From a virus, in IMG/VR virus record IMGVR_UViG_3300044996_000692, positions 1 to 23,646 of that record: DNA of 23,646 nucleotides, one strand, 5' to 3'. The translations under genes were made by a program, and so were the position numbers. Under the pieces are notes generated by a model. The model was not told where the DNA came from. It did not search any database and saw only the letters and a list, made by a program, of their open reading frames with translations. This document shows, piece by piece, positions 3,387 to 19,432 of the stretch. The stretch's first letter is position 1. Each line of letters begins with the position of its first letter.

Positions 3387-3417
3387 CTCCACTTCAGAAG
3401 TCATAACCCCACCTTAA

Positions 3418-3439
3418 CCTCCCCTTGCTTAAGGGGAGG
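3418..3439. repeat. Short family A-like hairpin between transposase and ATPase genes
   Basis: CCTCCCCTT (3418-3426) and AAGGGGAGG (3431-3439) form a perfect 9-bp stem around a GCTT loop. It is a shortened relative of the family A hairpins found at many other gene junctions here. It falls in the 83-base gap before the GTG start of the ATPase gene, and its AGGGGAGG arm could also act as a weak ribosome-binding site. Confidence 0.8.
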
Positions 3440-3469
3440 ATGGGAGGAGTTAAAGAGGAGGTGAAACAG

Positions 3470-4867
3470 GTGGGCAATTATAAGAAGATATATCAAAAGC
3501 CTTACAACCCGTGCATCGTGCGCGACCTGCTTGCAGAGTGCGATATCGCGCAGCATGAGATCGCGGACGCCGTTGGTGTCAACAGAGAAACCCTCCGCCT
3601 TGCCGTAAACCGCGGCTACATTCCCGGATACAAAAAAGACCTCCGCAAAAAGGTCGAAGCATTCATCCTATTGCACCTTGCGGCAGTGGCCTGGCTTCGT
3701 AAAAACAGGCTTGGGCCGGCAGACCTCTGGAAGCGCACAGGGAACCGCAGTAAGGTTTATTTATCAGGCCACGGAGAGCGACTATACCGGTCGCGGAGAA
3801 ACAATCTCGCGGCAAAGCCGCGGGAGACACAGGCACTAATAATAGTAAAAAAACAGAAAGAAAGGAGAAAGGCATTTATGGAAAACGGTTTTGCGACACT
3901 GGCCGCGTTCGGCTACAGGAAAGACCCGTTTGAGCCGGTCCGCATACGCACCGGAGATGGAGATATATTAAGAAGAATATTTCAGATGGCCGTCATGAGC
4001 AACGCCATCTTTTCCGTGGTGGCTCCATGGGGCGCAGGCAAGACAACCGCCATTGAGATGGCCTCGGCAGAGATAGACGCTCATATAATCCGTGTCATCA
4101 CCGCGGATAAAGAGAGGGTCAAGGTGCACGACATCGAGCGCACGCTTATCAAACAGCTCCTCCCGGCAGAATCCATTGTCCGCGACCGTGACGCGCGGGC
4201 GCACCAGCTAAGGAGAATCGTCGGCGAGGCAGCAAAAGAAAAGCCCGTAATCCTGCTGATCGAAGAGGCCCACTGCCTGCACAACTCAACCCTCCGGGCG
4301 CTCAAGCGGATCCGCGAGTATGAGTGGCTCGGCAAGCGGCCCCTGCTCAGCATGATCCTCATTGGCCAATACGACAAGCTCCGCTCCGGCAACCTTGAGG
4401 AGCTGCGCCTCGGCACCCGGTCAGACACCTACCGGCTGAAAGGTCTGGCGCCGTCAGAGTCCGCGAGATATATCAACGAAACCGTGGGAGAGCACTTTGA
4501 GGAGGAGGCAATCAAGGCCATTTCCGAGCTGCCTGTGGCACGGAACTTCCTTGAGCTTCAGGAGGCCCTCATCACCCTTATGAGTTCGGCCATCGCCAAT
4601 GGATCAAAGACCATCTCAATATTTGACGTGTTCTCAGTCTACGGCGGCGGCGTTAAGCAGCTGATGGAAAAATACGACATCGCCGCGGGCACGATCTGCG
4701 ATGCAACCGGGCTGGACAAGACCACGGTATCCCTGCTTGTGAACAACAAGCCGCATACCCTCTCCGGAGACACCGAGCGCACCGCGCGCGAGGCCATCAA
4801 CGCAGCCCTGAAAAATCTTATCCGGAATCCCGGAGGAAAGCGGCTGAAAGCGGTCAGCAATGAATAA
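3470..4867 (+). CDS. MuB-like AAA+ ATPase with N-terminal HTH extension
   Basis: GTG 3470 is preferred because AGGAGGTGA lies six bases upstream; the product is 465 residues. Residues about 20-65 form a helix-turn-helix (IADAVGVNRETLRLAVNRG). A basic, low-complexity linker follows. An AAA domain then begins near FGYRKDPFEP, with Walker A APWGAGKTT (about 185-193), Walker B VILLIEEAH (about 260-268), a sensor segment ILIGQ and an arginine-rich C-terminal lid. A second HTH is at about 400-440 (IAAGTICDATGLDKTTVSLL). MuB binds DNA as an ATP-dependent filament and delivers target DNA to the transposase. Usual MuB proteins are near 310 residues, and the segment from an internal ATG at 3878, with AAAGGAG ten bases upstream, would be 329 residues. 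The gene may therefore be a fusion or have two starts. Confidence 0.9.
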   Translation: MGNYKKIYQKPYNPCIVRDLLAECDIAQHEIADAVGVNRETLRLAVNRGYIPGYKKDLRKKVEAFILLHLAAVAWLRKNRLGPADLWKRTGNRSKVYLSGHGERLYRSRRNNLAAKPRETQALIIVKKQKERRKAFMENGFATLAAFGYRKDPFEPVRIRTGDGDILRRIFQMAVMSNAIFSVVAPWGAGKTTAIEMASAEIDAHIIRVITADKERVKVHDIERTLIKQLLPAESIVRDRDARAHQLRRIVGEAAKEKPVILLIEEAHCLHNSTLRALKRIREYEWLGKRPLLSMILIGQYDKLRSGNLEELRLGTRSDTYRLKGLAPSESARYINETVGEHFEEEAIKAISELPVARNFLELQEALITLMSSAIANGSKTISIFDVFSVYGGGVKQLMEKYDIAAGTICDATGLDKTTVSLLVNNKPHTLSGDTERTAREAINAALKNLIRNPGGKRLKAVSNE

Positions 4868-4869
4868 GG

Positions 4870-4941
4870 CAATGCAGAATGAAAAATGCAGAATGCAGAA
4901 TCAGGAAAATTCTTCATTCTCAATTCTTAATTCTGCATTTA
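4870..4941. repeat. Family B palindromic repeat (copy 1)
   Basis: The left arm has repeats of AATGCAGAAT; the right arm has ATTCTTCATTCT and ends in ATTCTGCATTT, so the two arms pair as a long imperfect hairpin. The element fills the whole gap between the ATPase stop and the ribosome-binding site of the next gene. Confidence 0.9.
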
Positions 4942-4961
4942 AAGGTTAAAGGAGATTGGAA

Positions 4962-5264
4962 ATGGAAACAAAGCAGTATATCTGCAACAAGTGTCTGGGT
5001 GTCATTAACAGCAGCGGATATACAGTTATTACAGACTGCCACGCGACCGGAGAATTTCTCAATATCGCCATTATCGGAGGCATATTGCAGAAACCCGAAA
5101 TGCGCCCGCAGACAGTCCATGGCGTCATGCACTACTGCGGCAAGCACTGCCTGATGCTCGCGCTGAACACAATGGTGGATTCAATAAAAACAGGGAGAAG
5201 TACTGCTGAAACGGCAGCTGCTCAACCTCCCCTATCCCATCCCTGTGAAGGAGGGGGAATCTGA
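4962..5264 (+). CDS. Small Cys/His-rich, probably zinc-binding protein
   Basis: ATG 4962 follows AAAGGAGA at 4948-4955. The 100-residue product has CNKC near the N-terminus, a single Cys-His at CHATG, and YCGKHC near residue 64, a pattern expected to bind zinc. It is not the Mu Com protein, which is shorter and has a different Cys spacing. The last ~16 residues (from about AAAQPPLSHP onward) are encoded by a family A repeat at 5226-5264, which also supplies the stop codon, so the original C-terminus was probably replaced by repeat insertion. Function unknown. Confidence 0.65.
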   Translation: METKQYICNKCLGVINSSGYTVITDCHATGEFLNIAIIGGILQKPEMRPQTVHGVMHYCGKHCLMLALNTMVDSIKTGRSTAETAAAQPPLSHPCEGGGI

Positions 5265-5308
5265 CCACCCCTATCCCCTCCTTGCCAAGGAGGGGAAAAG
5301 GGGAGGTT
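5226..5308. repeat. Two tandem family A hairpin repeats
   Basis: A degenerate copy (5226-5264, with CCTCCCCTATCCCATCC and GAAGGAGGGGG arms) is followed by a good copy (5265-5308, with CCCCTATCCCCTCCTTG and CAAGGAGGGGAAAAGGGG arms). The first copy encodes the end of the upstream gene. The second ends in GGGGAGGT, which resembles a Shine-Dalgarno sequence. Confidence 0.9.
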
Positions 5309-5309
5309 A

Positions 5310-5374
5310 AAGGATAACGAAAAGGGTAACACGCGGAGCGAAGCGGAGTCGTCGTTGACCCGCTTGTTATCCTT
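5310..5374. repeat. Inverted repeat element with GCGGAGCGAAGCGGAG core (family E)
   Basis: AAGGATAAC (5310-5318) pairs with GTTATCCTT (5366-5374). Nested inside, GGGTAAC (5324-5330) pairs with GTTGACCC (5354-5361) with one bulge. The centre holds CGGAGCGAAGCGGAGTCG. It directly abuts the family A copy on its left and the ribosome-binding site of the next gene on its right. Only one copy is seen in the window. Confidence 0.75.
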
Positions 5375-5388
5375 CCAAGGAGGTATTT

Positions 5389-5688
5389 GTGAAAATTATT
5401 TATAGACCACGGCAGATGGGAAAGACCACGGAAATTATCAAGATTGCGGCGGAGAACTATTCGTATATCGTATGCCTCTCTCACAGGGAATGCGCCCGTG
5501 TAGCCAAATATGCTGAAGAGTTGGGCCTGAAAATTCCCTTTCCCATGACGATGGATGAGTTTATGAACGGCAGATTTTACAGGCCTGGAATCAAGGGAGG
5601 TTTTGTAATAGATAATGCAGAGGCTATTATTCAGAGGTTGGCAAAGGGCGTGACAGTAAGGGCGATGAGCGTGAATGAGGAAGGATAA
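5389..5688 (+). CDS. Mini P-loop protein, 99 aa
   Basis: GTG 5389 follows a strong AAGGAGGT ribosome-binding site at about 5377-5384. Residues 6-13 read RPRQMGKTT-like, a Walker A motif; FVIDNAEAII near residue 72 could serve as Walker B, with the acid in the IDN position. At 99 residues it is about half the size of a normal P-loop domain. Small phage proteins with this layout are known to me only as uncharacterised AAA-like proteins. It could bind a nucleotide or be a decoy partner for another ATPase (inference). It is followed after two bases by a membrane protein gene. Confidence 0.7.
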   Translation: MKIIYRPRQMGKTTEIIKIAAENYSYIVCLSHRECARVAKYAEELGLKIPFPMTMDEFMNGRFYRPGIKGGFVIDNAEAIIQRLAKGVTVRAMSVNEEG

Positions 5689-5690
5689 CC

Positions 5691-5828
5691 ATGAATATTC
5701 TAACAAAAATCGTAATTGTAGCCACGGTAGTTTACCTGCTGCTTCAGGTTGGCAGGTTCTGGGGGCATCAGGAAATGAAGGTGCAGGCGGCATATGACAA
5801 GGAATACAAATGCTTGCAGGCATACTGA
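5691..5828 (+). CDS. One-helix membrane protein, 45 aa
   Basis: ATG 5691 follows GAGGAAGGA. The 45-residue product has one hydrophobic helix at about residues 4-21 (TKIVIVATVVYLLLQV) followed by a charged, Lys-rich tail ending in CLQAY. It starts two bases after the stop of the mini P-loop gene, so the two are probably co-translated. Function unknown. Confidence 0.6.
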   Translation: MNILTKIVIVATVVYLLLQVGRFWGHQEMKVQAAYDKEYKCLQAY

Positions 5829-5840
5829 CCGGCTTGCTGC

Positions 5841-5889
5841 CCACCACCCCTATCCCCTCCTTGCCAAGGAGGGGAAAAAGGGGAGGTTA
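5841..5889. repeat. Family A hairpin repeat
   Basis: CCACCCCTATCCCCTCCTTG pairs with CAAGGAGGGGAAAAAGGGG across a CC loop-edge. It sits between the membrane protein gene and the next small gene and covers most of that gap. Confidence 0.92.
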
Positions 5890-5922
5890 AGTGTAGGCAG
5901 GGATTCGGGAGGAGAGAAATAA

Positions 5923-6087
5923 ATGAGCGACATATTGAATGAAGAAATGAGAATGATGATGGACAAATACGGCAAGCTGGAGGTATTGAGGGCAATGCTC
6001 TTTATCCTCCGGCGGGAAGAGCTTTCAAACACGATGGAAAAAGTATTGAAGGAGGCAGAAAAGAATGGTGACTCTCACAGAAATTGA
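5923..6087 (+). CDS. Small helical protein, 54 aa
   Basis: ATG 5923 follows GGAGGAGAG at about 5908-5917. The product is methionine- and glutamate-rich and predicted wholly helical (EEMRMMMDKYGKLEVL, then LFILRREEL). It overlaps the Gam-like gene by 23 bases, and its own 3' end carries the AAGGAGG ribosome-binding site (6049-6055) for that gene. No family recognised. Confidence 0.6.
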   Translation: MSDILNEEMRMMMDKYGKLEVLRAMLFILRREELSNTMEKVLKEAEKNGDSHRN

Positions 6088-6592: not shown

Positions 6593-6603
6593 AGCATAAT
6601 TAC

Positions 6604-6786: not shown

Positions 6787-6822
6787 TTGCCCGTAAATGT
6801 TAAAACCAGAAGGGGGTGCCAC

Positions 6823-7029
6823 ATGGCACAAAAAGAAAAAGAGGGCGCGGCCCTCGAAATGGACGCAGCGCGTCTGGCTTCATCTCTCCGCTGTCTTGAG
6901 CTAACCTGTAGACTTCTTCTCATAGCCTCCGCCGTCGAAGGCTTTCAGCTTCAGGCCGCTGATGTCCAATGCATATGCAAGATATTCATTGAGAATGTCC
7001 ACGACATAAAAACGATCATGGAGGTATAA
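6823..7029 (+). CDS. Small helical protein, 68 aa
   Basis: ATG 6823 is preceded by AGAAGGGGGT from the second copy of the 18-bp repeat. The product is predicted helical, with a Cys-rich middle (RCLELTCRLLLIASAVEG and DVQCICKIF). The stop is one base before the ATG of the KilA-N gene. Upstream the frame stays open to 6589, but that extension runs through the terminator and operator region and is judged non-coding. Function unknown. Confidence 0.6.
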   Translation: MAQKEKEGAALEMDAARLASSLRCLELTCRLLLIASAVEGFQLQAADVQCICKIFIENVHDIKTIMEV

Positions 7030-7030
7030 C

Positions 7031-7633
7031 ATGGACGCATTGAAAGTTGTTGACACCGAGATAAGACAAGACCCCGAAGGGAGATACTCCCTGAGCGACC
7101 TACACAGAGCGGCTGGCGGACAGAAAAAACATACGCCAAGCAGATGGCACAAGAACAGTCAGACAAATGCCCTGATCGGGGAATTAGAGAAGGAAAATAA
7201 AACCCTAATTAGGGTTTATTACACGGCCCAAAAACGCGGGGCTTTTGTCGTAAAAGAACTCGTTTACTCTTATGCCATGTGGGTTAGCCCTGCCTTCAAC
7301 CTGCGGGTGATCCGGGCCTTTGACGCACTGGTTAACGGCGAATTTGTGCTGCCGAGCATCCAACATGAAAACTACTGGTTTGCCCGGCGTCCCCACTGGC
7401 CGCCAATCCGCCTCAGGGTGCTTGCCGGAGAAGCCTACCGCACAATAGCCGAGGTTCTTAAAATCAGCAGGCACAGTGTGGCAAGGGCTGTTAAAAGCAT
7501 GATTCGTGTCGGCCTGCTTTCACCTATGCGAGTTGCGCTGGCACAGAAGGGCCCTGCAAAAAGAGCGGCCTTGCGTTATGGTCAGGGCTGGGGCCAGCAG
7601 CAGCTTCTGCCTTTTGGCGTACAAACAGGATAA
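7031..7633 (+). CDS. KilA-N domain DNA-binding protein (probably frameshifted at its 3' end)
   Basis: ATG 7031 follows GGAGGT five to six bases upstream. Residues 8-100 match the KilA-N domain of phage antirepressors and DNA-binding proteins: GRYSLSDLHRAAG, PSRWHKN, then RGAFVVKELVYSYAMWVSPAFNLRVIRAFD. Residues 125-165 hold an added helix-turn-helix (GEAYRTIAEVLKISRHSV). This frame stops at 7633, but a different frame stays open and encodes a well-formed helical tail that ends in a stop overlapping the next start at 7715. The natural protein probably continues into that tail by frameshift. A regulatory role in the early or middle phase is likely. Confidence 0.8.
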   Translation: MDALKVVDTEIRQDPEGRYSLSDLHRAAGGQKKHTPSRWHKNSQTNALIGELEKENKTLIRVYYTAQKRGAFVVKELVYSYAMWVSPAFNLRVIRAFDALVNGEFVLPSIQHENYWFARRPHWPPIRLRVLAGEAYRTIAEVLKISRHSVARAVKSMIRVGLLSPMRVALAQKGPAKRAALRYGQGWGQQQLLPFGVQTG

Positions 7634-7718
7634 AGATGAACTGCTCAAAATCAAACGCACCCTGAATGATATCAGGGATTTGACCGGAGCGGAGATACCA
7701 AAACCGGACTGGATGTGA
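7578..7718 (+). other. Out-of-frame C-terminal tail of the KilA-N gene, or a small coupled ORF
   Basis: In the frame one base ahead of the KilA-N gene, an ORF runs to TGA 7716-7718. Its protein-like part starts near 7614 and reads as a charged helix (DELLKIKRTLNDIRDLTG) ending in EIPKPDWM. The final ATGTGA overlaps GTG 7715 of the gp16-like gene, a classic coupling arrangement, so this frame is very likely translated. The only ATG, at 7578, lacks a ribosome-binding site, which favours a frameshift from the KilA-N gene near 7605-7625. Confidence 0.45.
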
Positions 7719-8215
7719 ATAACAGAAAACCAATAGACGCTGTCCAGGTGAAGCTTATCCATATCGCGAAGGCGAAGCTCTGTTTGAGCGATGTGGATTA
7801 CCGCACACTGCTTTCTGAGCGCTACTGGGTCAACACCTGCAAAGAGCTTAGTTATGACGAAGCCACGGACCTTATCAAGCATTTCCAGACGCAGGGGTTT
7901 AAGATCATCACGAAAAGACATAACCATCTGACCTCCCCTATCCCCTCCTTGCCAAGGAGGGGAAAAAGGGGAGGTAGGGAGGCAGGGGGAGTTAACAATA
8001 TCACCCGGCTTGTCTCCCCCCAGCAGCTTGCGAAGATCGAGCACCTGCGGGCAGACATCCAGTGGCGCATCAAGCCGGATGGTTATTGCCACTGGCTCAG
8101 GAAGTATCTTAAAAAAGACCGCATCACAACAGAAAAAGAAGCCAGGAACGTCATCGAGGCATTAAAGGGAATGGTTCAACGGCAGGGGGCAAGGGAAAGG
8201 CAGGAGGCAGAATGA
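7715..8215 (+). CDS. GemA/gp16-like regulatory protein (DUF1018) with in-frame repeat insertion
   Basis: GTG 7715 overlaps the preceding stop. The 166-residue product shows the DUF1018 layout: an N-terminal half with KLIHIAKAKLCLSDVDYRTLL and a C-terminal half with QLAKIEHLRADI and EARNVIEALKGM. Family members (Mu GemA/gp16) are linked to late control of host supercoiling and gene expression. Residues about 72-93 (including SPIPSLPRRGKRGG) are encoded by a complete family A hairpin repeat placed exactly between the two halves, with the frame kept. The last ~12 residues come from a family D stretch, and the stop falls in a family B fragment. The insertion probably lengthens a flexible linker. 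Confidence 0.82.
   Translation: MNNRKPIDAVQVKLIHIAKAKLCLSDVDYRTLLSERYWVNTCKELSYDEATDLIKHFQTQGFKIITKRHNHLTSPIPSLPRRGKRGGREAGGVNNITRLVSPQQLAKIEHLRADIQWRIKPDGYCHWLRKYLKKDRITTEKEARNVIEALKGMVQRQGARERQEAE
7930..7975. repeat. Family A hairpin repeat inside the gp16-like gene
   Basis: A full-length copy, with CCTCCCCTATCCCCTCCTTG and CAAGGAGGGGAAAAAGGGG arms, is nearly identical to the intergenic copies at 5265, 5841 and 17830 but lies in frame inside coding sequence. It is translated without a stop. Confidence 0.93.
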
Positions 8216-8230
8216 AGAATGCAGAAATAC
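8180..8230. repeat. Family D and family B fragments at the gp16-like gene end
   Basis: GGCAGGGGGCAAGGGAAAGG (family D-like) is followed by GAATGAAGAATGCAGAA (family B left arm). Together they encode the last residues and the stop of the gp16-like gene. Confidence 0.65.
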
Positions 8231-8240
8231 AAGATGATCA

Positions 8241-8319
8241 GCCACAGAGATCACCGAGGTCACAGAGTTATATCAAAAAGAATGAAGCTTTCCTCTGTGT
8301 TCTCTGTGTGCTCTGTGGC
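8241..8319. repeat. Family C palindromic repeat (copy 1)
   Basis: GCCACAGAG (8241-8249) pairs with CTCTGTGGC (8311-8319), with further CACAGAG and CTCTGTG units inside both arms. It fills the gap between the gp16-like gene and the ribosome-binding site of the next gene. Confidence 0.9.
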
Positions 8320-8334
8320 AAATAAGGAGATTTT

Positions 8335-8622
8335 ATGATGTTAGACCCGGAATCAAAAGCGCTTTGGGACGAGCTGAAACAACAGGGTTCATGGGAAATG
8401 AAGAATGCAGAATGTGGAATGAAGAATAATGATCAACAGGGGCCAAGGGTTCAAGGGCTCGAGGGGCCAAGTGAAATATCCTTGCCCCCTGCCCCTTGCT
8501 GCCGGATAATGATGTCAATGAAAAAGAATGGCATGGACTTCCTTAATTTCTTTCAGAACGGGTTATTTGTCAGCAGCCTTGAAATCAATAACTGCCCGCA
8601 GTGCGGGAGGAAGCTTGACTGA
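8335..8622 (+). CDS. Small zinc-ribbon-like protein with nested in-frame repeats
   Basis: ATG 8335 (or 8338) follows AAGGAGA at about 8322-8328. The first 19 residues (DPESKALWDELKQQG) and the last ~35 (KNGMDFLNFFQNGLF to CPQCGRKLD) look like native protein. Residues about 20-58 are encoded by a family B half-element (8397-8430) followed by a family D palindrome (8436-8502), in frame. The CPQCG motif is half of a zinc ribbon, so metal binding may need a dimer or partner. It overlaps the Mor-like gene by eight bases. Function unknown. Confidence 0.6.
   Translation: MMLDPESKALWDELKQQGSWEMKNAECGMKNNDQQGPRVQGLEGPSEISLPPAPCCRIMMSMKKNGMDFLNFFQNGLFVSSLEINNCPQCGRKLD
8397..8502. repeat. Family B half-element plus family D palindrome inside a gene
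   Basis: AAATGAAGAATGCAGAATG is the family B arm. The family D part has GGGGCCAAGGGTTCAAGGG on the left and CTTGCCCCCTGCCCCTTG on the right, which pair imperfectly. Both lie in frame in the small zinc-ribbon gene. Confidence 0.8.
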
Positions 8623-8920: not shown

Positions 8921-8924
8921 GATA

Positions 8925-8963: not shown

Positions 8964-9040
8964 AGACTTCTCTCTCCTTGCATTATCTTCTTTGTGTGTA
9001 TATCAAGTGTCTCGAAAGCTGCAGGCTTCACCTCCCACCT

Positions 9041-9068: not shown

Positions 9069-9111
9069 TCACCTCTTCAACCGCAACAGGGTTCAAGGGG
9101 GCGAGGGGGCA

Positions 9112-9543: not shown

Positions 9544-9551
9544 GAGTCTTT

Positions 9552-9651
9552 GCCACAGAGGCCACAGAGGCCACAGAGGGGATAGGGAAAATAAAGATTC
9601 GGGTTTTTTGTTTTGAAAACTTTCCTCTGTGCTCTCTGTGTCCTCTGTGGC
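9552..9651. repeat. Family C palindromic repeat (copy 2)
   Basis: GCCACAGAGG occurs in tandem on the left (from 9552) and pairs with CCTCTGTGGC at 9642-9651; CTCTCTGTG units lie in the right arm. It fills the gap between the endolysin and the holin-like gene. Confidence 0.92.
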
Positions 9652-9676
9652 TGAAAATTAAGGAGGATTGGATTTG

Positions 9677-9856
9677 ATGGATAAAGCAAAGTTCAAAACG
9701 GGCATTAAGACTTCTGAATTCTGGATGGCGCTGATCACGGCGCTGGTCAGTATCGGCAATGAACATCTGGGACTGGGTTTATCGCCGGAAGTTGTTTATG
9801 TTGTCGGCGGCATCGCGATCTCCTACATCCTCGGACGTTCCTTCGTAAAGAAATGA
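9677..9856 (+). CDS. Holin-like small membrane protein
   Basis: AAGGAGGA at 9659-9667 precedes ATG 9677; a TTG at 9674 is also possible. The 59-residue product has a hydrophobic N-terminal segment (FWMALITALVSIG) and a second one (VVYVVGGIAISYILG), joined by a short polar loop with NEHLG, and a basic end. This two-helix hairpin and its place right after the endolysin fit a class II-type holin, but homology is not shown. The stop codon lies within a family B repeat. Confidence 0.6.
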   Translation: MDKAKFKTGIKTSEFWMALITALVSIGNEHLGLGLSPEVVYVVGGIAISYILGRSFVKK

Positions 9857-9911
9857 AGAATGATGAATTAAGAATGAAGAATCCTGCATTCTGCATTTTT
9901 CATTCTGCATT
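9851..9911. repeat. Family B palindromic repeat
   Basis: AAATGAAGAATG and AAGAATGAAGAAT on the left pair with ATTCTGCATTTTTCATTCT and TGCATT on the right. The left arm contains the stop codon of the holin-like gene. Confidence 0.88.
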
Positions 9912-9931
9912 GCTTTGTATCGGGTCAGGAA

Positions 9932-10509: not shown

Positions 10510-10513
10510 AGAC

Positions 10514-10585
10514 AATGCAAAAAATAAATGCAGAATGCAGAAGACGGGGAAATTCTTCATTCTGCATTTCTGATTCTGCATTTTA
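10514..10585. repeat. Family B palindromic repeat
   Basis: AAATGCAGAATGCAGAA on the left pairs with ATTCTTCATTCTGCATTTC and ATTCTGCATTTTA on the right. It lies between the small coiled-coil gene and the gp27 gene. Confidence 0.9.
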
Positions 10586-10590
10586 AAGAA

Positions 10591-11118: not shown

Positions 11119-12454
11119 GGCAATAACTCCGGCCATAGAGCTGTATCCCTATCAGAAGAAATGGATACTCGACAACGCGAGATTCAAGGAAGGGCGCTGG
11201 GCGCGGCAGACCGGGAAATCCTTTGCCTGCGCCGCAGGCATTGTGCTTGAGTGCCGGGAGACAGATAAAAACAAATGGGTCGCCATCTCATCAGGCGAGC
11301 GGCAGGTGAAGGAGTTCATGGAAAAGGTTGACCTGCACGCGCGAATTACAGAGAAGGCCATCTCCTGGCATGAAGACGTCTTTGGCTTCGTCAACGCGGA
11401 CGGTCACAAGGAGGAATACAAGGTGACGGAATGCAGGCTCAGAAACGGCTCGCGCATTATCGGCGCCCCCGCAAACCCGGACACGGCAAGGGGTTATTCC
11501 GCCAACGTCTACCTCGATGAATTCTCCGTGCACAAGAATTCCCGCGAGATGTGGGCCGCGGTGTTCCCCATAGTTTCGCGCGGCTTCAAGCTCTGGGCGA
11601 CCTATACGCCCAAGGGCAGGCAGAACATGGCCTATGACCTGTCAAAGAATCCGGTCTTCAGCCACCATGTTGTGGACATCTACCAGGCAGTGGCAGAGGG
11701 CTGCCCGCACGACATCGAAGCCCTCCGCGCCGGCATAGACCCCGATCTCTGGGCGCAGGAATATGAAGTGCAGTTCCTCGATGAGGCAACCGCCTTCATC
11801 ACCTACGACATGATCAACGAATGCGAAAGCGATAAGGCGCTGATTGATTTGCCTAAAGGCGTATTCATGATTCCATTCCCTCCGATTGAGGAAAGGGCCG
11901 CGGGGCAAATCTTCCTGGGCGTGGATATCGGCAGAAAAAAAGACCTGACTGTAATCTGGGCATGGGAAAAGCTGGGAGACGTATTCTGGACCCGCATGGT
12001 CAAGCGCATGAAAAACACCATGTTCAGGGTGCAGCGGGACGAGCTGTTCCGGCTGCTGCCGTTTGTCCACCGCTGCTGCATAGACTCTACCGGACTCGGT
12101 ATGCAGCTCGCTGAAGAGGCAATCGAGAAGTTCGGCAGCAAGGTCGAGGCGGTGACATTTACATCAAAAGTAAAAGAAGATCTCGCCTTCACCTTCAGGA
12201 GAAAGTTTGAAGACAGGCTGCTCCGCATACCTCCGGACAGGGATATCCGCGAGGACATCCATTCGGTGAAAAAAATCACCACGTCTGCGGGAAACATCAG
12301 GTTCGATGCTGAGCGCAGCGAAGCGGGCCACGCCGATCATTTCTGGGCAGGCGCCCTTGGAGTGCACGCGGGAAACAACCCTGTCGGCCTGATCGAATTC
12401 GAAACAGCCGCGCTCAAACGCGAGCACACGAAAATGGCGGGGTTTTTAAGATGA
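11105..12454 (+). CDS. Large terminase subunit (Mu gp28-like)
   Basis: This 449-residue protein has both terminase domains. The ATPase part has Walker A at residues 32-39 (WARQTGKS, Lys38) and Walker B at 135-140 (VYLDEF, with D138 and E139), followed by an ATYTPKG coupling motif. The nuclease part has D274 in LGVDIGRKKDL, D327 in CIDSTGLG and D411 in HADHFW, the three acids expected for the RNase-H-like site. It would package DNA by a headful mechanism, cutting host flanks as in Mu. The start overlaps gp27. Confidence 0.93.
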   Translation: MDSPKAITPAIELYPYQKKWILDNARFKEGRWARQTGKSFACAAGIVLECRETDKNKWVAISSGERQVKEFMEKVDLHARITEKAISWHEDVFGFVNADGHKEEYKVTECRLRNGSRIIGAPANPDTARGYSANVYLDEFSVHKNSREMWAAVFPIVSRGFKLWATYTPKGRQNMAYDLSKNPVFSHHVVDIYQAVAEGCPHDIEALRAGIDPDLWAQEYEVQFLDEATAFITYDMINECESDKALIDLPKGVFMIPFPPIEERAAGQIFLGVDIGRKKDLTVIWAWEKLGDVFWTRMVKRMKNTMFRVQRDELFRLLPFVHRCCIDSTGLGMQLAEEAIEKFGSKVEAVTFTSKVKEDLAFTFRRKFEDRLLRIPPDRDIREDIHSVKKITTSAGNIRFDAERSEAGHADHFWAGALGVHAGNNPVGLIEFETAALKREHTKMAGFLR

Positions 12455-12473
12455 AGAAAGATAAAACCCCTCT

Positions 12474-12518
12474 GACCACCCCTATCCCCTCCTTGGCAAG
12501 GAGGGGAAAAAGGGGAGT
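12474..12518. repeat. Family A hairpin repeat
   Basis: CCACCCCTATCCCCTCCTTG and GGCAAGGAGGGGAAAAAGGG arms. Its right end, GGGGAG, lies seven bases before an in-frame TTG at 12525, so the repeat may have created an alternative start for the portal gene. Confidence 0.92.
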
Positions 12519-12539
12519 CAGGATTTGAGATTAAAGGCA

Positions 12540-14093
12540 ATGGCGAAGAATAAAAAACCAATAACAGACGAAATCGCGACAGTAGAGAAAGACATCTTCC
12601 AGGACTATATCGGAAGAACGCTTCTAAACCCGGACAAGGTGCTGAAATCAGAATCCGGCGGCAAAGGGATTGAACTCTACGAAGACCTCCTCCGCGACGA
12701 CAAGGTGGGCTCAACCCTCCAGACGCGCCGGCTCGCGGTTATAGGCAAGGAATGGGAAATGCGTCCGGCCTCGGAGAAGAGGCAGGATGTGAAAATCTCC
12801 GAATATGTAAACGACGTGCTTGCCGATTTCAATTACGACGCTGCGCGCGGCGTGCTTCTCTCCGGACTGGTTATGGGGTTCAAGCCCTCTGAAGTGATGT
12901 GGGATTATTCCGAGGGGGCCGTCTGGATCCGCGAGATGATCGGCAGGGCCTCCCGCCGGTTTGTGTTCGATAAAGAGCGCAGGCTCAGGCTTCTTACCCT
13001 GAAGAACATGGTCGAGGGCGAGGAGCTGCCCGACCGCAAGTTTGTGGTGTTCACGAACACGTCAGACAACGGCAGCCCCTATGGCGACGGACTCGGCAGG
13101 ATGCTTTACTGGCCGGTATGGTTCAAGAAGAACGCCATAAAATTCTGGCTGATATTCGCTGATAAATTCGGTTCTCCCACTGCTGTCGGAAAATATCCCG
13201 CAGGCACCGACAAGGTGCAGCAGGACGCCCTCCTCGGCGCCATAGAGGCAATACAGCAGGAAGCGGCAATCAAGATACCCGACAATATGGTCATAGAGCT
13301 GCTTGAGGCAACCCGCTCCGGAACGGTAAACACCTATGAGGGCCTCTGCGATTACATGAACAGCGCCATCGCGCAGGTCATGCTGGGGCAGACGCTTACA
13401 TCCGATATCGGCGACAAAGGCAGTTACTCGGCGTCGCAGACGCATGAGGGCGTGCGGCAGGATTATATCAAGGCAGACGCAGACGCGCTGTGTCTCTGCC
13501 TCAATGAATCCCTGATCAGATGGATCGTGGATTATAACTTCCCCGGCGTGACCAAATACCCGAAGGTATGGATCCGCACCGAGGAAGAGAAAGATTTGAA
13601 GCCGCTGGCCGAGAGAGACCAGATACTTCTGAACATGGGCGCGCGCATAACGCACGCGTATATCCACGACACCTATGGGATACCGGAGCCGGATAGCAAT
13701 GAAGAGCTACTGCAGCAACAGGGGACAATTCAGAATGAAGAATCAAGAATGCGGAATACAGGGCAACAAGTGGAAGGCAACAGGCAACAGGCGGAGGGGT
13801 CAAAAGAAACGCTTGAGCAGTTTGCGGAACGCAAATCAGCTTCTTTCTTGTTCCCGGATCAGCAGGCTGTTGATGACGCGGCGGCGTCCCTTGCTCCAGA
13901 ACAGTTGCAGCAGCAGATGCAGGGAGTGATGAAGCCTGTTATTGATCTTATAGCTGAAGGCAATTCCTATGATGAGATTATGGAAGCTCTCCTCGAGGCA
14001 TATCCCTACATGAAAACAGAAGCAATCGAGGAGATGCTCGCCCGGGCAATCTTTGTCAGCGAATTGTGGGGGAGGCTGAATGCCGGCAAATAA
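12540..14093 (+). CDS. Portal protein (DUF935, Mu gp29-like) with in-frame repeat insertion
   Basis: ATG 12540 gives 517 residues; TTG 12525 has a better-spaced purine stretch from the repeat. The body matches the DUF935 portal family: YEDLLRDDKVGSTLQTRRLAV near the N-terminus, VMGFKPSEVMWD, FADKFGSPTAVGKYPAG, and AQVMLGQTLTSD. Portals form the dodecameric DNA channel at the capsid vertex. Residues about 395-421 (IQNEESRMRNTGQQVEGN and on) are encoded by a family B half-element and a family D-like stretch, in frame, between the portal core and a helical C-terminal part. The 3' end overlaps the MuF gene by 14 bases. Confidence 0.92.
   Translation: MAKNKKPITDEIATVEKDIFQDYIGRTLLNPDKVLKSESGGKGIELYEDLLRDDKVGSTLQTRRLAVIGKEWEMRPASEKRQDVKISEYVNDVLADFNYDAARGVLLSGLVMGFKPSEVMWDYSEGAVWIREMIGRASRRFVFDKERRLRLLTLKNMVEGEELPDRKFVVFTNTSDNGSPYGDGLGRMLYWPVWFKKNAIKFWLIFADKFGSPTAVGKYPAGTDKVQQDALLGAIEAIQQEAAIKIPDNMVIELLEATRSGTVNTYEGLCDYMNSAIAQVMLGQTLTSDIGDKGSYSASQTHEGVRQDYIKADADALCLCLNESLIRWIVDYNFPGVTKYPKVWIRTEEEKDLKPLAERDQILLNMGARITHAYIHDTYGIPEPDSNEELLQQQGTIQNEESRMRNTGQQVEGNRQQAEGSKETLEQFAERKSASFLFPDQQAVDDAAASLAPEQLQQQMQGVMKPVIDLIAEGNSYDEIMEALLEAYPYMKTEAIEEMLARAIFVSELWGRLNAGK
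13730..13800. repeat. Family B half-element and family D-like stretch inside the portal gene
   Basis: ATTCAGAATGAAGAATCAAG and GAATGCGGAAT match the left arm of family B; GGCAACAGGCAACAGGCGG resembles family D. The frame is kept open through both. Confidence 0.7.
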
Positions 14094-15447
14094 CATAGAT
14101 CTGAAATACGCTATCGGGCTTAAACCCGAAGAAGCGATTAAATACTTCGACTCCAGGGGATATACATTTTCTCACGACTGGCAGGACACCTGGCAGGATG
14201 CCCACGCAAAGGCGTTCACTGTTGCAAAGGCAATGCGCATGGATGTGCTTCAGGACATCCGGGGCATGGTCGGCGAGGCAATTGATAAAGGCCTTACCCT
14301 GCGGGAATTTCAAAAGGCACTTGAACCGAAACTCAGGGCAAAGGGATGGTGGGGCAGCCAGCTTGCCGGAGATGAAACCCCTCTGTCTCCCCCCTTGGAT
14401 AAGGGGGGAATGAAGGGGGGTTATTCTGTGCAGCTCGGCTCTCCTCACAGGCTGAAGACAATTTATCAGACAAATCTCCAGACGGCATACATGGCAGGCA
14501 GATACAAGGAATTCGCTGACAATGTTGATGACAGACCCTTCTGGCAGTTTGTCGCTGTGATGGACTCGCGCACACGTCCCGCGCACGCGGCCTTGAACGG
14601 CAAGGTTTTCCGGTATGACGATCCGTTCTGGGATACCCATTACCCGCCCCTGGGGTTCAACTGCAGATGCAGGGTGCGGGCATTGTCAGATAAAAATATA
14701 AAAAGCAGAAACCTTTCTGTTGAGAAAAGTGAAGGCAGAATAACCTGGCAGGATGAGCTCGTCAGCAAAAAGACAGGAGAGCTGAGGCCGGTTGCCGCGT
14801 ATCACGACCCGCTTACCGGACAAAGCATAAAGACTGATGCGGGCTGGAGCTACAATCCGGGGAAGGCGTGGATGGAGCCTTTTACCCCGGGACCCTTTGA
14901 CCCTGATGAGTTTGAAGGCGGCTTCAAGACAGTCGGAGCAATGTATTATCCCAAACCTCCGATAGAAAAACTTCCGGCAAAGCCGCTGGCAAAAGAGATG
15001 CTTTTATCCCCGCATCAAAATACAGGAATGACCGATAAAGACTACATTAATGTCTTTCTGAAGGAGTTCGCCACAGAGATCGGCAAGCCGGTTGTCTATA
15101 AAGATGTGATTGGCGACCCGGTGATAATCTCTGAAGAGCTTTTTAAAGACCGTTCCGCGGGCGGTTATAAGGTCTTAAAGTCAGACAGAGAAATCTATCT
15201 GCCGATGCTTGCGGACACTATCAGGGACCCTGTGGAAGTATGGCTGGTGTGGGTGCAGGGGAAAGGGGAAGCAAGGCTCTGCAAGAGATATATAGGCGTC
15301 TATAAGGATGCATCCGGGAAGTTTGGCGGATACGCGGTTTTTGACCTTATAGATGATGTATGGCAAGGCACCACGGCGTTCAAGCCGAGAAAACTGGAGT
15401 ATCTTGATGACTACAGGACAGGAACATTGCTCTACACAAAAAAATAA
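14080..15447 (+). CDS. MuF head morphogenesis protein fused to a PBECR2-like nuclease domain
   Basis: Residues about 120-205 form the MuF (gp30/gp7 SPP1-like) domain, with FWQFVAVMDSRTRPAHAALN, YPPLGFNCRCR and the conserved Cys pair. MuF proteins sit in the capsid, may be ejected with DNA, and are often fused to toxins. Residues about 318-455 (KDYINVFLKEFATEIGKPV, then WLVWVQG, CKRYIGVYKD and the TGTLLYTKK end) match the PBECR2 domain (phage Barnase-EndoU-ColicinE5/D-RelE-like nuclease), predicted to cut RNA. Residues 99-115 are encoded by a family A variant, in frame, between the N-terminal helices and the MuF domain. No immunity gene is obvious nearby. Confidence 0.87.
   Translation: MPANNIDLKYAIGLKPEEAIKYFDSRGYTFSHDWQDTWQDAHAKAFTVAKAMRMDVLQDIRGMVGEAIDKGLTLREFQKALEPKLRAKGWWGSQLAGDETPLSPPLDKGGMKGGYSVQLGSPHRLKTIYQTNLQTAYMAGRYKEFADNVDDRPFWQFVAVMDSRTRPAHAALNGKVFRYDDPFWDTHYPPLGFNCRCRVRALSDKNIKSRNLSVEKSEGRITWQDELVSKKTGELRPVAAYHDPLTGQSIKTDAGWSYNPGKAWMEPFTPGPFDPDEFEGGFKTVGAMYYPKPPIEKLPAKPLAKEMLLSPHQNTGMTDKDYINVFLKEFATEIGKPVVYKDVIGDPVIISEELFKDRSAGGYKVLKSDREIYLPMLADTIRDPVEVWLVWVQGKGEARLCKRYIGVYKDASGKFGGYAVFDLIDDVWQGTTAFKPRKLEYLDDYRTGTLLYTKK
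14387..14422. repeat. Family A variant inside the MuF gene
   Basis: CTCCCCCCTTGGATAAGGGG is followed by GGAATGAAGGGGGGTT. CCCCCCTT pairs with AAGGGGGG around a short loop. It is translated in frame as a proline- and glycine-rich segment. Confidence 0.8.
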
Positions 15448-15522
15448 CCTGAAAAGCATCCTACCCGGCAACCCGGGTTTGTTAACGGCCCCGGATAAGG
15501 TGGCCTTACCTCTTCAGGTTAT
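15444..15522. other. 79-base structured palindrome between MuF and gpG genes
   Basis: ATAACCTGAA (15444-15453) pairs perfectly with TTCAGGTTAT (15513-15522). Inside are ACCCGG/CCGGGT with a CAAC loop (15463-15478) and an AAGGTGGCCTT stem (about 15497-15507), giving a three-way-junction-like shape. The MuF stop codon lies in the outer stem. It could be an RNA control element, a repeat or a processing site; no known riboswitch or tRNA is recognised. The whole gap runs 15448-15557. Confidence 0.6.
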
Positions 15523-15557
15523 GACTTTATTTTACTCAGGCAGAGAGGTTTGTCAAG

Positions 15558-16076
15558 ATGATTGAAATCAGAATTGATGACCATGAAGTCAGGAATCTCC
15601 TGGGCACCCTGCAGGGGAGGCTCCGAACCCTGTCGCCTGCCATGAAACAGATCGCCGGCATTATGCATGATGCAGTTGAAGAAAACTTTGAGCAGGAAGG
15701 CAGGCCAAAATGGGATCCGCTGAAAAAGTCCACACAGGAGCAAAGGAAGAAGGAAGGCAAATGGCCCGGGAAGATATTGCAGAAAAGCGCCGGAGGCCTC
15801 GCTGCGTCAATCAGCCGCTCCTTTAATTCATATCAGGCGGTTGTAGGATCAAATAAAAAATATGCGGCAATTCATCAGTTCGGCGGAAAGACCGGCCCCC
15901 ATATTATCAGGCCAAAAAGGAAGCAGGCATTATTCTGGCCCGGCGCAAAACATCCGGCAAGGTCGGTGAACCACCCGGGTTCAGACATCCCCGCGCGGCC
16001 ATTTTTGAAATTAACCGATGGGGATATGTCGGAAATCAAATCAGCCCTGATGGATTACATTTTGAGAGGGAAATAA
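15558..16076 (+). CDS. Virion morphogenesis protein (Mu gpG/gp31-like)
   Basis: ATG 15558 follows AGAGAGG. The 172-residue product matches the phage virion morphogenesis family: an N-terminal LSPAMKQIAGIMHDAVEENF helix, the conserved KWDPLKKST, the basic ILQKSAGGLAASI, VGSNKKYAAIHQFGGKTG and IPARPFLKL near the end. In Mu the family protein gpG is needed for head and tail joining. Its place after MuF is as in Mu. Confidence 0.9.
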   Translation: MIEIRIDDHEVRNLLGTLQGRLRTLSPAMKQIAGIMHDAVEENFEQEGRPKWDPLKKSTQEQRKKEGKWPGKILQKSAGGLAASISRSFNSYQAVVGSNKKYAAIHQFGGKTGPHIIRPKRKQALFWPGAKHPARSVNHPGSDIPARPFLKLTDGDMSEIKSALMDYILRGK

Positions 16077-16080
16077 AACA

Positions 16081-16176
16081 AATGCAGAATGCAGAATGCA
16101 GAATGAAGAAAAACAAAAGAATAAAACCCGGCTCCTTATTCATATTTCTTCATTCTGCATTTTTAATTCTTCATTC
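16081..16176. repeat. Family B palindromic repeat (longest copy)
   Basis: Three tandem AATGCAG units on the left pair with CTTCATTCTGCATTT and AATTCTTCATTC on the right, around a loop of about 30 bases. It fills the first half of the 222-base gap 16077-16298. Confidence 0.92.
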
Positions 16177-16212
16177 AACAGAATGCCCCAGGATCGATTT
16201 AAGGAGGACAAC

Positions 16213-16308
16213 ATGAGGTTTGTATCGCGGTGCCCCGCGTTTTTTGAATGGCGCATGTTTATAAACAAAATTTGCGCTATCCGCGCAGGGAGGATGAGAT
16301 GGCTTTAG
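16213..16308 (+). CDS. 31-residue leader ORF upstream of the protease/scaffold gene
   Basis: ATG 16213 has one of the best ribosome-binding sites in the window, TAAGGAGGA (about 16200-16207). The peptide is basic and aromatic (MRFVSRCPAFFEWR and on) and its TAG stop at 16306-16308 overlaps the protease start ATG 16299 by 10 bases. Codons 5-11 coincide with a small terminator-like hairpin. The setup recalls an attenuation or coupling leader, but the ORF could also just bring ribosomes to the protease gene. Confidence 0.5.
   Translation: MRFVSRCPAFFEWRMFINKICAIRAGRMRWL
16226..16245 (+). terminator. Small terminator-like hairpin inside the leader ORF
   Basis: CGCGG (16226-16230) pairs with CCGCG (16235-16239) around TGCC and is followed by six T (16240-16245). 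The 5-bp stem is short, so termination would be weak and sensitive to a translating ribosome. Confidence 0.4.
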
Positions 16309-17420
16309 ACTGGTTTCCTGTATTCCGCACCGGGAAGCACACCGATTCCAACGGAAACGAGAAGGAATGGACGCGGGATGACCTCAATAAAATCGTCAGC
16401 TCATACGACCCGTCACATCATGAAGCCCCAGTGGTCATCGGACATCCTAAAGACAATGCCCCGGCGTGGGGATGGGTGGAGGCGCTGAAGCGGGAAGGAG
16501 ATATCCTGCTCGCAAAACCGGCGCGGCTTGTCAGCGATTTCGTGGATATGCTGAAGAAGGGCATGTTCAAAAAGCGGTCCATCTCTCTTTATCCGGATGG
16601 ATCTCTCAGGCATATAGGGTTTCTCGGAGCAATGCCCCCGGCAGTAAAGGGGCTGGAAGATATCCAATTTAATGAAGGAGGTGAAACAACGATTGAATTT
16701 GAAGAGATGCTTAGCCCCTCCCATTCTCACCCTGAGTCAAGGGGAGGTGAAGGCAGGGGTACGGAAGAATCTAAAAAGGAGGATAAGACTATGAAGTTTT
16801 TTGATTGGCTCAAAAGCCTCGCGCAGAAAGAGGGGGTGCAGCTTGACGACCTCCCCGCGACCTTCAGCGAGGCCGACGTCAGGGACGCTGCCGCAAAGGC
16901 CGCTCAGGAAGCCCGAGACAAGGCAGCGGCGGAATTTGCCGAACAGCAGAAAAAGAAAGACTCCGAAATTGCCGAGCGTGAACGAAAGCTGAAGGAGAAG
17001 GAGGCCTCGTACGCGAAGAAGGCCGTCTCTGAATTCTGCGAGGGACTGAAAAAACAGGGCGTGCTTACTCCCGCGATGGATAAGATCGGCATGGGCATAA
17101 CGGAGTTTATGCATCAGATATCCGCCATAGGGACAACCGTTGAGTTCGGCGAGGGAGACGCGAAAGGAAAGCAGACCCCGCTTGAATTCATGCAGGGGTT
17201 TCTCGCGAAACTGCCGAAGGCGATTGAGTTCAGGGAAGTCGCCGGGAACGAAAAGGACACCGGCAAAAGCGGCAACGCAGGCGAAAGGCTCGGCAGACTC
17301 GTAAGCGAAAAGATGAAGGCAAACAAGGAACTCACTTATGGAGCCGCATTCGCTGAAGTGCAGGAAGAAAATCCTGAGCTCGCGGCGGAATACGCTGAAG
17401 ACATGAAAGGAGGGAAATAG
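16299..17420 (+). CDS. Mu gp32-like protease/scaffold protein with in-frame repeat insertion
   Basis: ATG 16299 follows AGGGAGGA at about 16287-16293. Residues 1-130 match the Mu protease I family: FPVFRTGKHTDSNGNEKEW, SYDPSHHEAPVVIGHPK, then KKRSISLYPDGSLRHIGFLG and PPAVKGL. Family members cleave the scaffold during head maturation. Residues 160-373 are a charged helical scaffold, with a long coiled coil (EQQKKKDSEIAERERKLKEK). An internal ATG at 16791, with AAAAAGGAGG about nine bases upstream, would make the scaffold alone, as Mu makes gpZ from within gpI. The segment at residues 137-154 comes from a family A variant, in frame, exactly between protease and scaffold. Confidence 0.9.
   Translation: MALDWFPVFRTGKHTDSNGNEKEWTRDDLNKIVSSYDPSHHEAPVVIGHPKDNAPAWGWVEALKREGDILLAKPARLVSDFVDMLKKGMFKKRSISLYPDGSLRHIGFLGAMPPAVKGLEDIQFNEGGETTIEFEEMLSPSHSHPESRGGEGRGTEESKKEDKTMKFFDWLKSLAQKEGVQLDDLPATFSEADVRDAAAKAAQEARDKAAAEFAEQQKKKDSEIAERERKLKEKEASYAKKAVSEFCEGLKKQGVLTPAMDKIGMGITEFMHQISAIGTTVEFGEGDAKGKQTPLEFMQGFLAKLPKAIEFREVAGNEKDTGKSGNAGERLGRLVSEKMKANKELTYGAAFAEVQEENPELAAEYAEDMKGGK
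16712..16755. repeat. Family A variant inside the protease/scaffold gene
   Basis: GCCCCTCCCATTCTCACCC on the left and TCAAGGGGAGGTGAAGG on the right can pair through CCCCTCC/AAGGGGAGG. It is translated as a Ser-, His- and Gly-rich linker. Confidence 0.65.
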
Positions 17421-17422
17421 AA

Positions 17423-17818
17423 ATGGCAACAGAAAATGGAATTATGGATTTAAGCTATCCCGCTGATGAGGAACTGAGCAACGATCAGTACAGGATAATG
17501 GTGCTCGACGCCACATCCGGCAAGGTAAGACGTCCAAATGCCGCAACAGACATTCCGTTTGGCATATTGCAGAATGCGCCTCTGGCTGATGAAGCCGCGG
17601 TAGTGCGGCCGTTCGGCTGCGGCGGGGTTTCAAAAGTGCTGCTGGGCGCGACAATGGGAATAGGCACAATCATAGGCATGGAATATGTCAGCGCCTCTGA
17701 CGCAGGCAAGGCGATTGCCGCGGTGGTAACGCAATATCCCGTTGGAGTGCTTCTTGTTGGCGGGGTTGAAGATGATCTCGGGGTGGTCCTGCTTTCGCCG
17801 CTGACAGTTAAAGCATAA
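17423..17818 (+). CDS. Head decoration or cement protein
   Basis: This 131-residue protein starts at ATG 17423, three bases after the protease stop, with AAAGGAGGGAAA upstream. It is rich in short strands and Gly/Val (IPFGILQNAPLADEAAVVRP and PVGVLLVGGVEDD), the pattern of DUF2190-type capsid cement proteins that bind as trimers on the capsid surface. Its place between the scaffold and major capsid genes supports this. Confidence 0.72.
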   Translation: MATENGIMDLSYPADEELSNDQYRIMVLDATSGKVRRPNAATDIPFGILQNAPLADEAAVVRPFGCGGVSKVLLGATMGIGTIIGMEYVSASDAGKAIAAVVTQYPVGVLLVGGVEDDLGVVLLSPLTVKA

Positions 17819-17829
17819 AGAAACAACGC

Positions 17830-17920
17830 CCCCTAACCTCCCCTATCCCCTCCTTGTCAAGGAGGGGAAAAAGGGGTGGTGATGGGAAAAATAACGCCCC
17901 CTCTTAAATTAAGAGGGGGA
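17830..17920. repeat. Family A hairpin repeat and a second palindrome in tandem
   Basis: A family A copy (17830-17880, CCTCCCCTATCCCCTCCTTG and CAAGGAGGGGAAAAAGGGG arms) is followed by a different palindrome (CCCCCTCTT at 17897-17905 with AAGAGGGGG at 17911-17919). They fill most of the 131-base gap before the major capsid gene and may add mRNA stability ahead of a highly expressed gene. Confidence 0.9.
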
Positions 17921-17949
17921 AGGGGAAGCTAAAAAGGAGGAATTAACAA

Positions 17950-18930
17950 ATGCCACAGCCGAATGTTAAAGAATTGATCGTTGCGGGGCCGCTGCAGAAT
18001 GTCAGCATAGCCTACCGCAATCAGAGTTACATAGCCGACCGGGTATTCCCTGTCATCGACAACATCTCCCCGAAGGCGAAGATTGCCAGATATCTCAAGG
18101 GCGCGTGGTTCCGTGATGAAGCCGGAATAAGAGGCCCCAGCGCGGAAGCGCCGAGAGGCGGATATCCGGTTGACCTGCTCAGCGTCTCGACAAAAGAGTA
18201 CGCGTTCGCGAAAGAGGTGACTGACGAGGACCGTAAGTTTGCGAACTCCCAGGGAGCTCCGCCCTTAAAGCCGGATCAGGACGCGCTTGAATTTTGCGCC
18301 GACAAGATTGACCTGTCGAAGGAAAGAAGGGTCGCGTCAATGATAATCGCCGGGACCTGGTCAGGCGCTGCAGGAGAGGACGCTGCCGGGTTATGGGCGC
18401 CAAACGACGCGACAAACACGTTCATCGTCGATGTGCTGGCAAGGATCGAAACCATCAGGTCAAGCACAGGGATGAAGCCAAACGCCATGTGGATGGACTT
18501 CGGAACCTACAACACACTAAAGAAGCTTGACGCCCTGCTGGACCGCATCAAATACACCCAGCGGGGGATATTAACGGCGGAATTGATCGCCGCCATGTTC
18601 GACCTTGATGAGCTGCTGATCGGCGAAGCGGTCTATTCAACAGCGAAAGAGACCAAGGCGGGCACGGACTTTACCGCGTCCAATGTCTGGGAAAAGAATG
18701 CGGGCAAAGGTTCCGCGTTCCTTTATTACCGTCCGAAATCGCCAGGACTCAAGACCCCGTCGGCAGGATATCAGGCGAGGGTCGCTTATGATGAAGGCGG
18801 AGTAAGGAGAACGACCACCTGGAGAGAGGCGTCGAGACACCAGGACGTGTATGAGGTTGCGGAAGAAACGGATATCGTGCAGACCGGAGCTGACCTCGGC
18901 TTCCTGTGGTACGACACAATCCTGACGTAA
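17950..18930 (+). CDS. Major capsid protein
   Basis: ATG 17950 follows AAAAAGGAGG. The 326-residue protein follows the decoration gene and has features of HK97-fold capsid proteins of the Mu-like group distinct from Mu gpT: NQSYIADRVFPVIDNISPKA near the N-terminus, a tail of TREASRHQDVYEV type (TTTWREASRHQDVY), and the middle AMWMDFGTYNTLKKLD. A length near 330 is usual. It should assemble the icosahedral head. Confidence 0.85.
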   Translation: MPQPNVKELIVAGPLQNVSIAYRNQSYIADRVFPVIDNISPKAKIARYLKGAWFRDEAGIRGPSAEAPRGGYPVDLLSVSTKEYAFAKEVTDEDRKFANSQGAPPLKPDQDALEFCADKIDLSKERRVASMIIAGTWSGAAGEDAAGLWAPNDATNTFIVDVLARIETIRSSTGMKPNAMWMDFGTYNTLKKLDALLDRIKYTQRGILTAELIAAMFDLDELLIGEAVYSTAKETKAGTDFTASNVWEKNAGKGSAFLYYRPKSPGLKTPSAGYQARVAYDEGGVRRTTTWREASRHQDVYEVAEETDIVQTGADLGFLWYDTILT

Positions 18931-18939
18931 TAATAACCC

Positions 18940-18985
18940 AACCACCCCTTCCCCTCCTTGGCAAGGAGGGGAAAAAGGGGCGGTG
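18940..18985. repeat. Family A hairpin repeat
   Basis: CCACCCCTTCCCCTCCTTGG and CAAGGAGGGGAAAAAGGGG arms, lying in the 77-base gap after the major capsid gene. Confidence 0.92.
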
Positions 18986-19430: not shown

Positions 19431-19432
19431 GG

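Follow-up and report, generated by a model that had tools for sequence, protein, structure and literature searches.

The question raised by IMG/VR virus record IMGVR_UViG_3300044996_000692 (G000), a linear fragment of 23,646 bp without host DNA which is called the window below, is how the compact genome of a Mu-like phage comes to carry four families of short palindromic repeats, here named A, B, C and D, in the gaps between its genes and inside several of the genes themselves. Short palindromic repeats are common across bacterial genomes, and we know of no mechanism that accounts for the movement of most of them. Because phages have little dispensable DNA, a phage laden with such repeats offers a clean map of the sites at which they land and of the speed with which they are replaced. 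The explanation that we favour, with a probability of roughly 60%, is that non-autonomous palindromes of a host type repeatedly colonise permissive phage sites and replace each other there. The gaps have the look of places where repeats arrive and are exchanged quickly, and not that of debris in a prophage on its way out.

Different repeats at shared sites

The four families are built differently. Family A forms a two-storey hairpin of approximate sequence TAACCWCCCC-TAT-CCCCTCCTTGnCAAGGAGGGG-AAAAA-GGGGWGGTTA; family B is a palindrome whose arms consist of the degenerate heptads AATGCAG, AATGAAG and AATTAAG; the arms of family C consist of CACAGAGGn, with a period of 9; and family D is loosely defined. 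Individual elements range in size from 35 to 110 bp.

A contig from a different metagenome record (L072, from IMG 3300044489) is identical to the window at 12366-12455 and 12538-21924, with zero mismatches over 90 + 9,387 = 9,477 bp, and shares eight of the window's elements base for base. Between these two blocks, in the gap between the terminase and portal genes (12455-12539), the two sequences have unrelated contents: the window has 82 bp (12456-12537) holding a single canonical A copy (12471-12520, + strand, exact core at 12486), while L072 has 217 bp (L072 91-307), in which D-like words are followed by a C palindrome whose loop contains an A-type element, and the families that make up this allele also occur elsewhere in the window. 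The swapped interval extends from 1 nt past the terminase stop to 2 nt ahead of the portal ATG, and the terminase stop, the ribosome-binding site and the portal ATG are intact in both alleles. The change is a replacement, with no visible target duplication. This single case shows the two unrelated segments between conserved flanks that define dimorphic microdiversity in bacterial genomes, where the replacement of a short segment between near-identical flanks has been attributed mainly to illegitimate recombination (PMC2884548); it differs from the chromosomal loci in that it concerns a phage, in that its flanks contain zero single-nucleotide polymorphisms, and in that both alleles are built of dispersed palindrome families. 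The other near-identical pairs of relatives that were checked yielded no second clean swap, and differ mostly by small indels or gene-level changes. The pair suggests that a gap can exchange its whole contents without any change in the genes, so that population sequencing of one phage could measure the mobility of repeats directly.

Different families also occupy the same sites in more distant relatives. The closest relative of the early region, L245 (MuB 57% overall, Gam 52%, GemA 61%), has the highest repeat density of all loci compared, and its families, namely GTCATTCCTGCGAAGGCAGGAATCCAGA (a GTCATTCC..GGAATCCAG palindrome) and heptads such as AGAAGGC/AGTAAGC, are unrelated to those of the window. 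Like the window's repeats they occupy the gap between the MuA and MuB genes, with a different palindrome pair, and the GemA linker, and they are also found inside MuB. In L245, the MuB gene (6819-8396) has two extra segments, of 15 and 29 residues, located between the helix-turn-helix and the ATPase part; the palindrome just described encodes one of them, and an A-type element lies at the C-terminus. In the gap between the decoration and capsid genes, many relatives carry a different palindrome, and of 131 gaps examined in relatives 26% have a fold z < -3, compared with 0.8% of random stretches.

Most relatives lack the window's families. Those identified by terminase (n=65, best 68% at the amino acid level) have essentially none of A, B and C, and some of those identified by capsid (at most 83%), among them L100, L131, L118 and L089, have different representatives of the A superfamily; in L100, CCCCCTTTTCTAAAGGGGG..GGGGG is present in seven copies or more. 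No dispersed 14-mer family is present in 94 of the 118 loci of at least 8 kb; the remaining 24 have lineage-specific ones, such as GTAGGGGCAATTCATGAATTGCCCCTAC in L117, TTAGGCGTTAGGC in L017, GATTTTCGATTTTCG in L045, GTTTTCAGTTTTCAG in L048 and GATCGTTAACGATCC in L111. An earlier sequence-only reading of the window had described its repeat density as unusual for a phage, which is accurate within this group to the extent that such families occur in a minority of loci; the window is not the sole case, and ranks eighth in repeat density among the 118.

Elements in the genes and gaps of the window

The window encodes MuA- and MuB-like transposition proteins, Gam, KilA-N, GemA, a cell-wall hydrolase, gp27, terminase, the Mu portal, F, a G-type (virion morphogenesis) protein, the product of a protease/scaffold gene (a label which rests on position and alignment), the major capsid protein and gp36. 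All of these genes are open frames on the + strand, the core genes match Pfam/PHROG families, and MuA/MuB, Gam, GemA, gp27, terminase, portal, F, G and gp36 place the window among the Mu-like phages.

Repeats lie inside at least four genes and in a small reading frame described below, in line with the sequence-only reading, which had placed several of them inside genes, and in the F, GemA, portal and protease linkers the insertions are in frame within protein genes, in the manner of Rickettsia palindromic elements (RPEs). An A variant at 14376-14424 (+) gives the F protein (14080-15447) an insert of 12 residues, the TPLSPPLDKGGMKGGY region, and the site is empty in L244, L085, L110 and L105. 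The F protein also has a C-terminal PBECR2 domain (phage Barnase-EndoU-ColicinE5/D-RelE like nuclease). The portal inserts (a single B arm in frame at 13719-13766 and a D fragment at 13768-13800) and the insert in the protease/scaffold gene (a diverged A-type element in frame at 16713-16764, +) are located in variable linkers, and independent, different A-type inserts are found in the portal linker of L109 and the protease linker of L100. GemA (7715-8215) carries a canonical A copy in frame (7928-7977, +, exact core at 7942, fold z -5.5) at a linker where L245 has GATTCCGGACAAGCCGGAATGACA, and a D fragment (8178-8195) and a B/D single arm (8196-8229) lie at its 3' end. The small open reading frame (ORF) at 8335-8622 has about 32 extra residues, consisting of a single B arm (8391-8432) and a D palindrome (8436-8505), which are absent from its orthologue in L245.

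Repeat finding and sequence reading give totals of about 11 A, 7 B, 2 C and about 4 D elements, which bears out the family set and copy numbers first reported; their summed length is about 1.3 kb of the 23.6 kb window, a figure obtained by hand from the coordinates given here. The six canonical A copies have the same orientation as the genes. Apart from those already described, they are found at 5261-5309 (core at 5275, fold z -4.8), at 5840-5889 in the gap 5689-6064 (core at 5854), at 17833-17883 in the gap before the capsid gene (core at 17847, fold-tested) and at 18937-18987 in the gap between the capsid gene and gp36 (core at 18951, fold-tested), all on the + strand and with exact cores. 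The remaining members of a group of about five diverged copies, also on the + strand, lie in the MuA-MuB gap (3404-3440, sequence CCCCACCTTAACCTCCCCTTGCTTAAGGGGAGG), across the 3' end of ORF 4956-5264 (5224-5260), and at 17890-17928, where the variant core is CCCCCTCTTAAATTAAGAGGGGG. Family B has, in addition to its three single arms, four full palindromes, at 4866-4945 (detected in the period-7 scan and fold-tested), 9847-9918 (fold-tested), 10519-10584 and, in the gap between the G and protease genes, 16075-16178 (fold-tested). The two C copies, at 8241-8322 and 9546-9654, are full palindromes and were both fold-tested, and a last D fragment lies upstream of the cell-wall hydrolase gene (9085-9110). 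Two elements had escaped the first listing: one is a long quasi-palindrome GGATAAC...GTTATCC at about 5312-5380 (+), recognized by direct sequence reading, and the other, at about 3806-3826 in the MuB linker, is a CGCGGCAAAGCCGCG palindrome.

That repeats fill almost every gap is true of the region between 3.4 and 19 kb, with exceptions even there; the gaps 728-950, 7634-7714, 15448-15557, 19868-20036 and 20694-20877 are free of all four families. The possibility that the repeats are chance sequence fails against the six occurrences of the exact A core, for which a reversed-pattern control gave 0, and against the folding of ten elements as single-stranded DNA, which gave z values of -3.5 to -6.8 relative to shuffles; 11 of the 16 gaps tested had z <= -2.5. 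The possibility that they are assembly artefacts fails against the eight elements carried by the independent contig L072. A search of Rfam with the hairpins returned only chance miRNA-like matches.

Family A in bacteria and comparison with known repeats

A 26-base pattern of the A core matches metagenome-assembled genomes (MAGs) of three phyla, Neomarinimicrobiota, Ignavibacteria and Nitrospinota, and of one unassigned bacterium. At up to 2 mismatches, eight MAGs contain 1-56 cores per genome, and the control 0. In one Ignavibacteria MAG nearly all of the sampled A copies are located outside long frames, and their outer arms, ACCaCCCC/GGGGaGGT, resemble those of the window. The exact 43-mer of A in genome contigs and its 38-mer in viral contigs had no matches, although the shorter core did match; element A was not found in 50,697 phage records, and C turned up only as fragments in six plasmids. 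A MuA query against viral contigs recovered no relatives. A search for the host by means of the capsid, covering the phyla of G005, G002 and G001 and the class of G007, did not find it and yielded one related genome, G157, whose prophage has a capsid 70% identical to that of the window; the contig is without A, B and C, and the host family is without A cores. This case is weak evidence in agreement with repeat repertoires shared between phage and host.

The window's families fit the broad sense of repetitive extragenic palindromes (REPs), being short, palindromic, repeated and mostly extragenic, with several intragenic copies. Like the GTAG and CGTC superfamilies associated with REP-associated tyrosine transposases (RAYTs), they form short, high-copy extragenic hairpins of which some are intragenic (PMC3733652), and the relatives L117 and L034 have hairpins with GTAG/CTAC ends; unlike those superfamilies, the four families lack both the GTAG and the CGTC tag, A ending in TAACC..GGTTA, B consisting of heptads and C ending in GCCACAGAG. 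An association of family A with RAYTs was rejected as far as tested: in six genomes that carry A, no A core was close to any of 30 Y1_Tnp loci (up to 3 mismatches, incomplete MAGs, family A only), and G008, an incomplete MAG with 56 A cores, had no Y1_Tnp match. RPEs are likewise palindromic, of several families, and present both in gaps and in frame inside protein genes (PMC10969869), but they measure about 150 bp and occur in Rickettsia chromosomes, and the CGTC end of R. conorii RPEs (PMC3733652) is not seen on family A. Family B, as tandem degenerate 7-mers, belongs to the class of heptameric repeats, which are over-represented in many bacterial genomes (PMC4692102) and include the Xanthomonas/Nostoc GGGAATC type and the heptanucleotide hairpins of the Nostoc tRNA-Leu intron, in P6b (PMC3488679); these too are degenerate, mostly intergenic and sometimes arranged as inverted pairs, but they are reported from chromosomes, while here the carriers are Mu-like phages and the words are lineage-specific. 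Geobacter, an environmental bacterium, has many unrelated families of multicopy palindromic and direct repeats in intergenic regions (PMC2996986), again a chromosomal report and not one from a phage. Each component of the present case resembles something known in chromosomes; what is new is the density in a phage, the turnover at shared sites, and the swap on an identical backbone, and we found no description of such repeats in phages in the literature consulted.

Competing explanations and neighbouring features

If repeated colonisation by host-type palindromes is correct, the elements would be short non-autonomous palindromes of kinds dispersed in bacterial chromosomes, which would land and replace each other where compact phage DNA is dispensable, that is, in the stretch from a stop codon to the following ribosome-binding site, and also in flexible protein linkers provided that the frame is kept and no stops are introduced. 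Landings elsewhere would be purged by selection, and this would produce the appearance of every gap being filled; the family set of a phage would probably mirror the repeat repertoire of its host lineage. The sequences show directly that the repeats are present, that they can be inserted in frame, that most relatives lack them, that a relative has other families at the same sites, that one swap separates identical backbones, and that the A superfamily occurs in three phyla; we infer that the families come from hosts, that a mobile element or a copying process inserts them, that they are neutral or selfish, and how fast they are replaced. The suggestion of the sequence-only reading that REP- or MITE-like elements (the latter being miniature inverted-repeat transposable elements) spread in this lineage by means of a mobiliser outside the window fits the occurrence of the A superfamily in three bacterial phyla and in related phages, and the one variable site. 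Repeat vocabularies might help to link uncultured phages to their hosts. Several points weigh against colonisation from hosts: no single genome tested proved to contain all three of A, B and C; the host search returned no host, which leaves the host origin of the families presumptive; neither a target duplication nor an insertion junction was legible, since no close relative with an empty site turned up at the DNA level; a swap on an identical backbone was seen just once, 90 bp from a contig end; and the B, C and D arrays could have been made in place by slippage and template switching.

This last point is the core of the main rival, in which the heptad palindromes (B and D, with C in period 9) arise locally through replication slippage and quasi-palindrome template switching and only the A-type elements are truly dispersed. 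A scan for tandem arrays in 134 relatives (1.92 Mb, near-duplicates removed), with triplet-shuffled sequences as control, singles out period 7, with 247 arrays in 66 of the 134 loci and 0 in the controls, while periods 5, 6, 8, 9, 10 and 11 give 0, 14, 38, 50, 7 and 1. The heptad words vary between lineages, and 23% of the period-7 arrays have a reverse-complement partner within 150 bp, compared with 0.8% in controls. Heptad arrays favour gaps, since 60% of their midpoints fall in long ORFs, which cover 92% of the sequence; six Mu-like phages of cultured hosts (193 kb) contain no period-7 arrays, where about 23 would be expected at the relatives' rate. Slippage alone, however, leaves the presence of the same words at distant sites unexplained: all of the window's B copies use one set of words and are thus related across sites, and L072 gained C and A units which are present elsewhere in the genome. 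We consider local generation a possible but less likely account. A further reading, in which the gene gaps of these phages are exchangeable palindrome cassettes that outpace point mutation, with an undescribed copying process that builds or imports heptad-word palindromes in a lineage-specific vocabulary, appears unlikely. So does the second rival, in which the repeats are functional intercistronic RNA hairpins that stabilise segments of mRNA or insulate the translation of neighbouring genes, as some E. coli REPs do. The core genes and the six canonical A copies, with their asymmetric TAT/AAAAA loop, all lie on one strand, and 73% of the capsid-gp36 gaps in relatives (19 of 26 tested) have a fold z < -3, so that structure may be useful there; these gaps contribute part of the 26% of relatives' gaps that pass this threshold. 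Against such a role, copies in coding linkers do not need it, the terminase-portal gap has no marked structure in the majority of relatives (6% with z < -3, median length 19 bp), and most relatives have no dispersed repeats.

It is rather improbable that the swap is an assembly chimera which demonstrates no turnover, even though L072 begins just 90 bp ahead of the differing interval and repeats are typical points at which assemblers break: both alleles are well-formed, and a chimera would still presuppose a closely related phage that has this gap next to an identical terminase end. The proposal that the window is a long-resident, decaying prophage which has gathered repeats is contradicted, and we regard it as extremely improbable; the repeat load is indeed high for a phage, but the Mu-type core genes are open and match known families, the repeats inside genes are in frame, and a contig from another metagenome is identical over some 9.4-9.5 kb.

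Some features of the group concern neighbouring sequences. The capsid-gp36 hairpin of relatives, at the site where the window has an A element, may be an ordinary terminator or stabilising structure. The F-G gap (15448-15557 in the window, without A-D repeats) clusters at about 113-133 bp in relatives; upstream of G, several of L103, L104, L107, L143, L092 and L157 have a hairpin followed by complementary pieces of the GGCTCA...TGAGCC type, in which pairs appear to have changed, and a TATAG/TATCAC motif resembling a promoter precedes G, with no Rfam match. Judged from these sequences, the gap may be a conserved structured RNA or a late promoter region. In L156 (9104-9288), compared with L157 (about 3660-3915), which is 98-99% identical, there is an apparent partial duplication of the decoration gene beside the capsid gene, and L149 carries a tRNA gene at 2061-2133.

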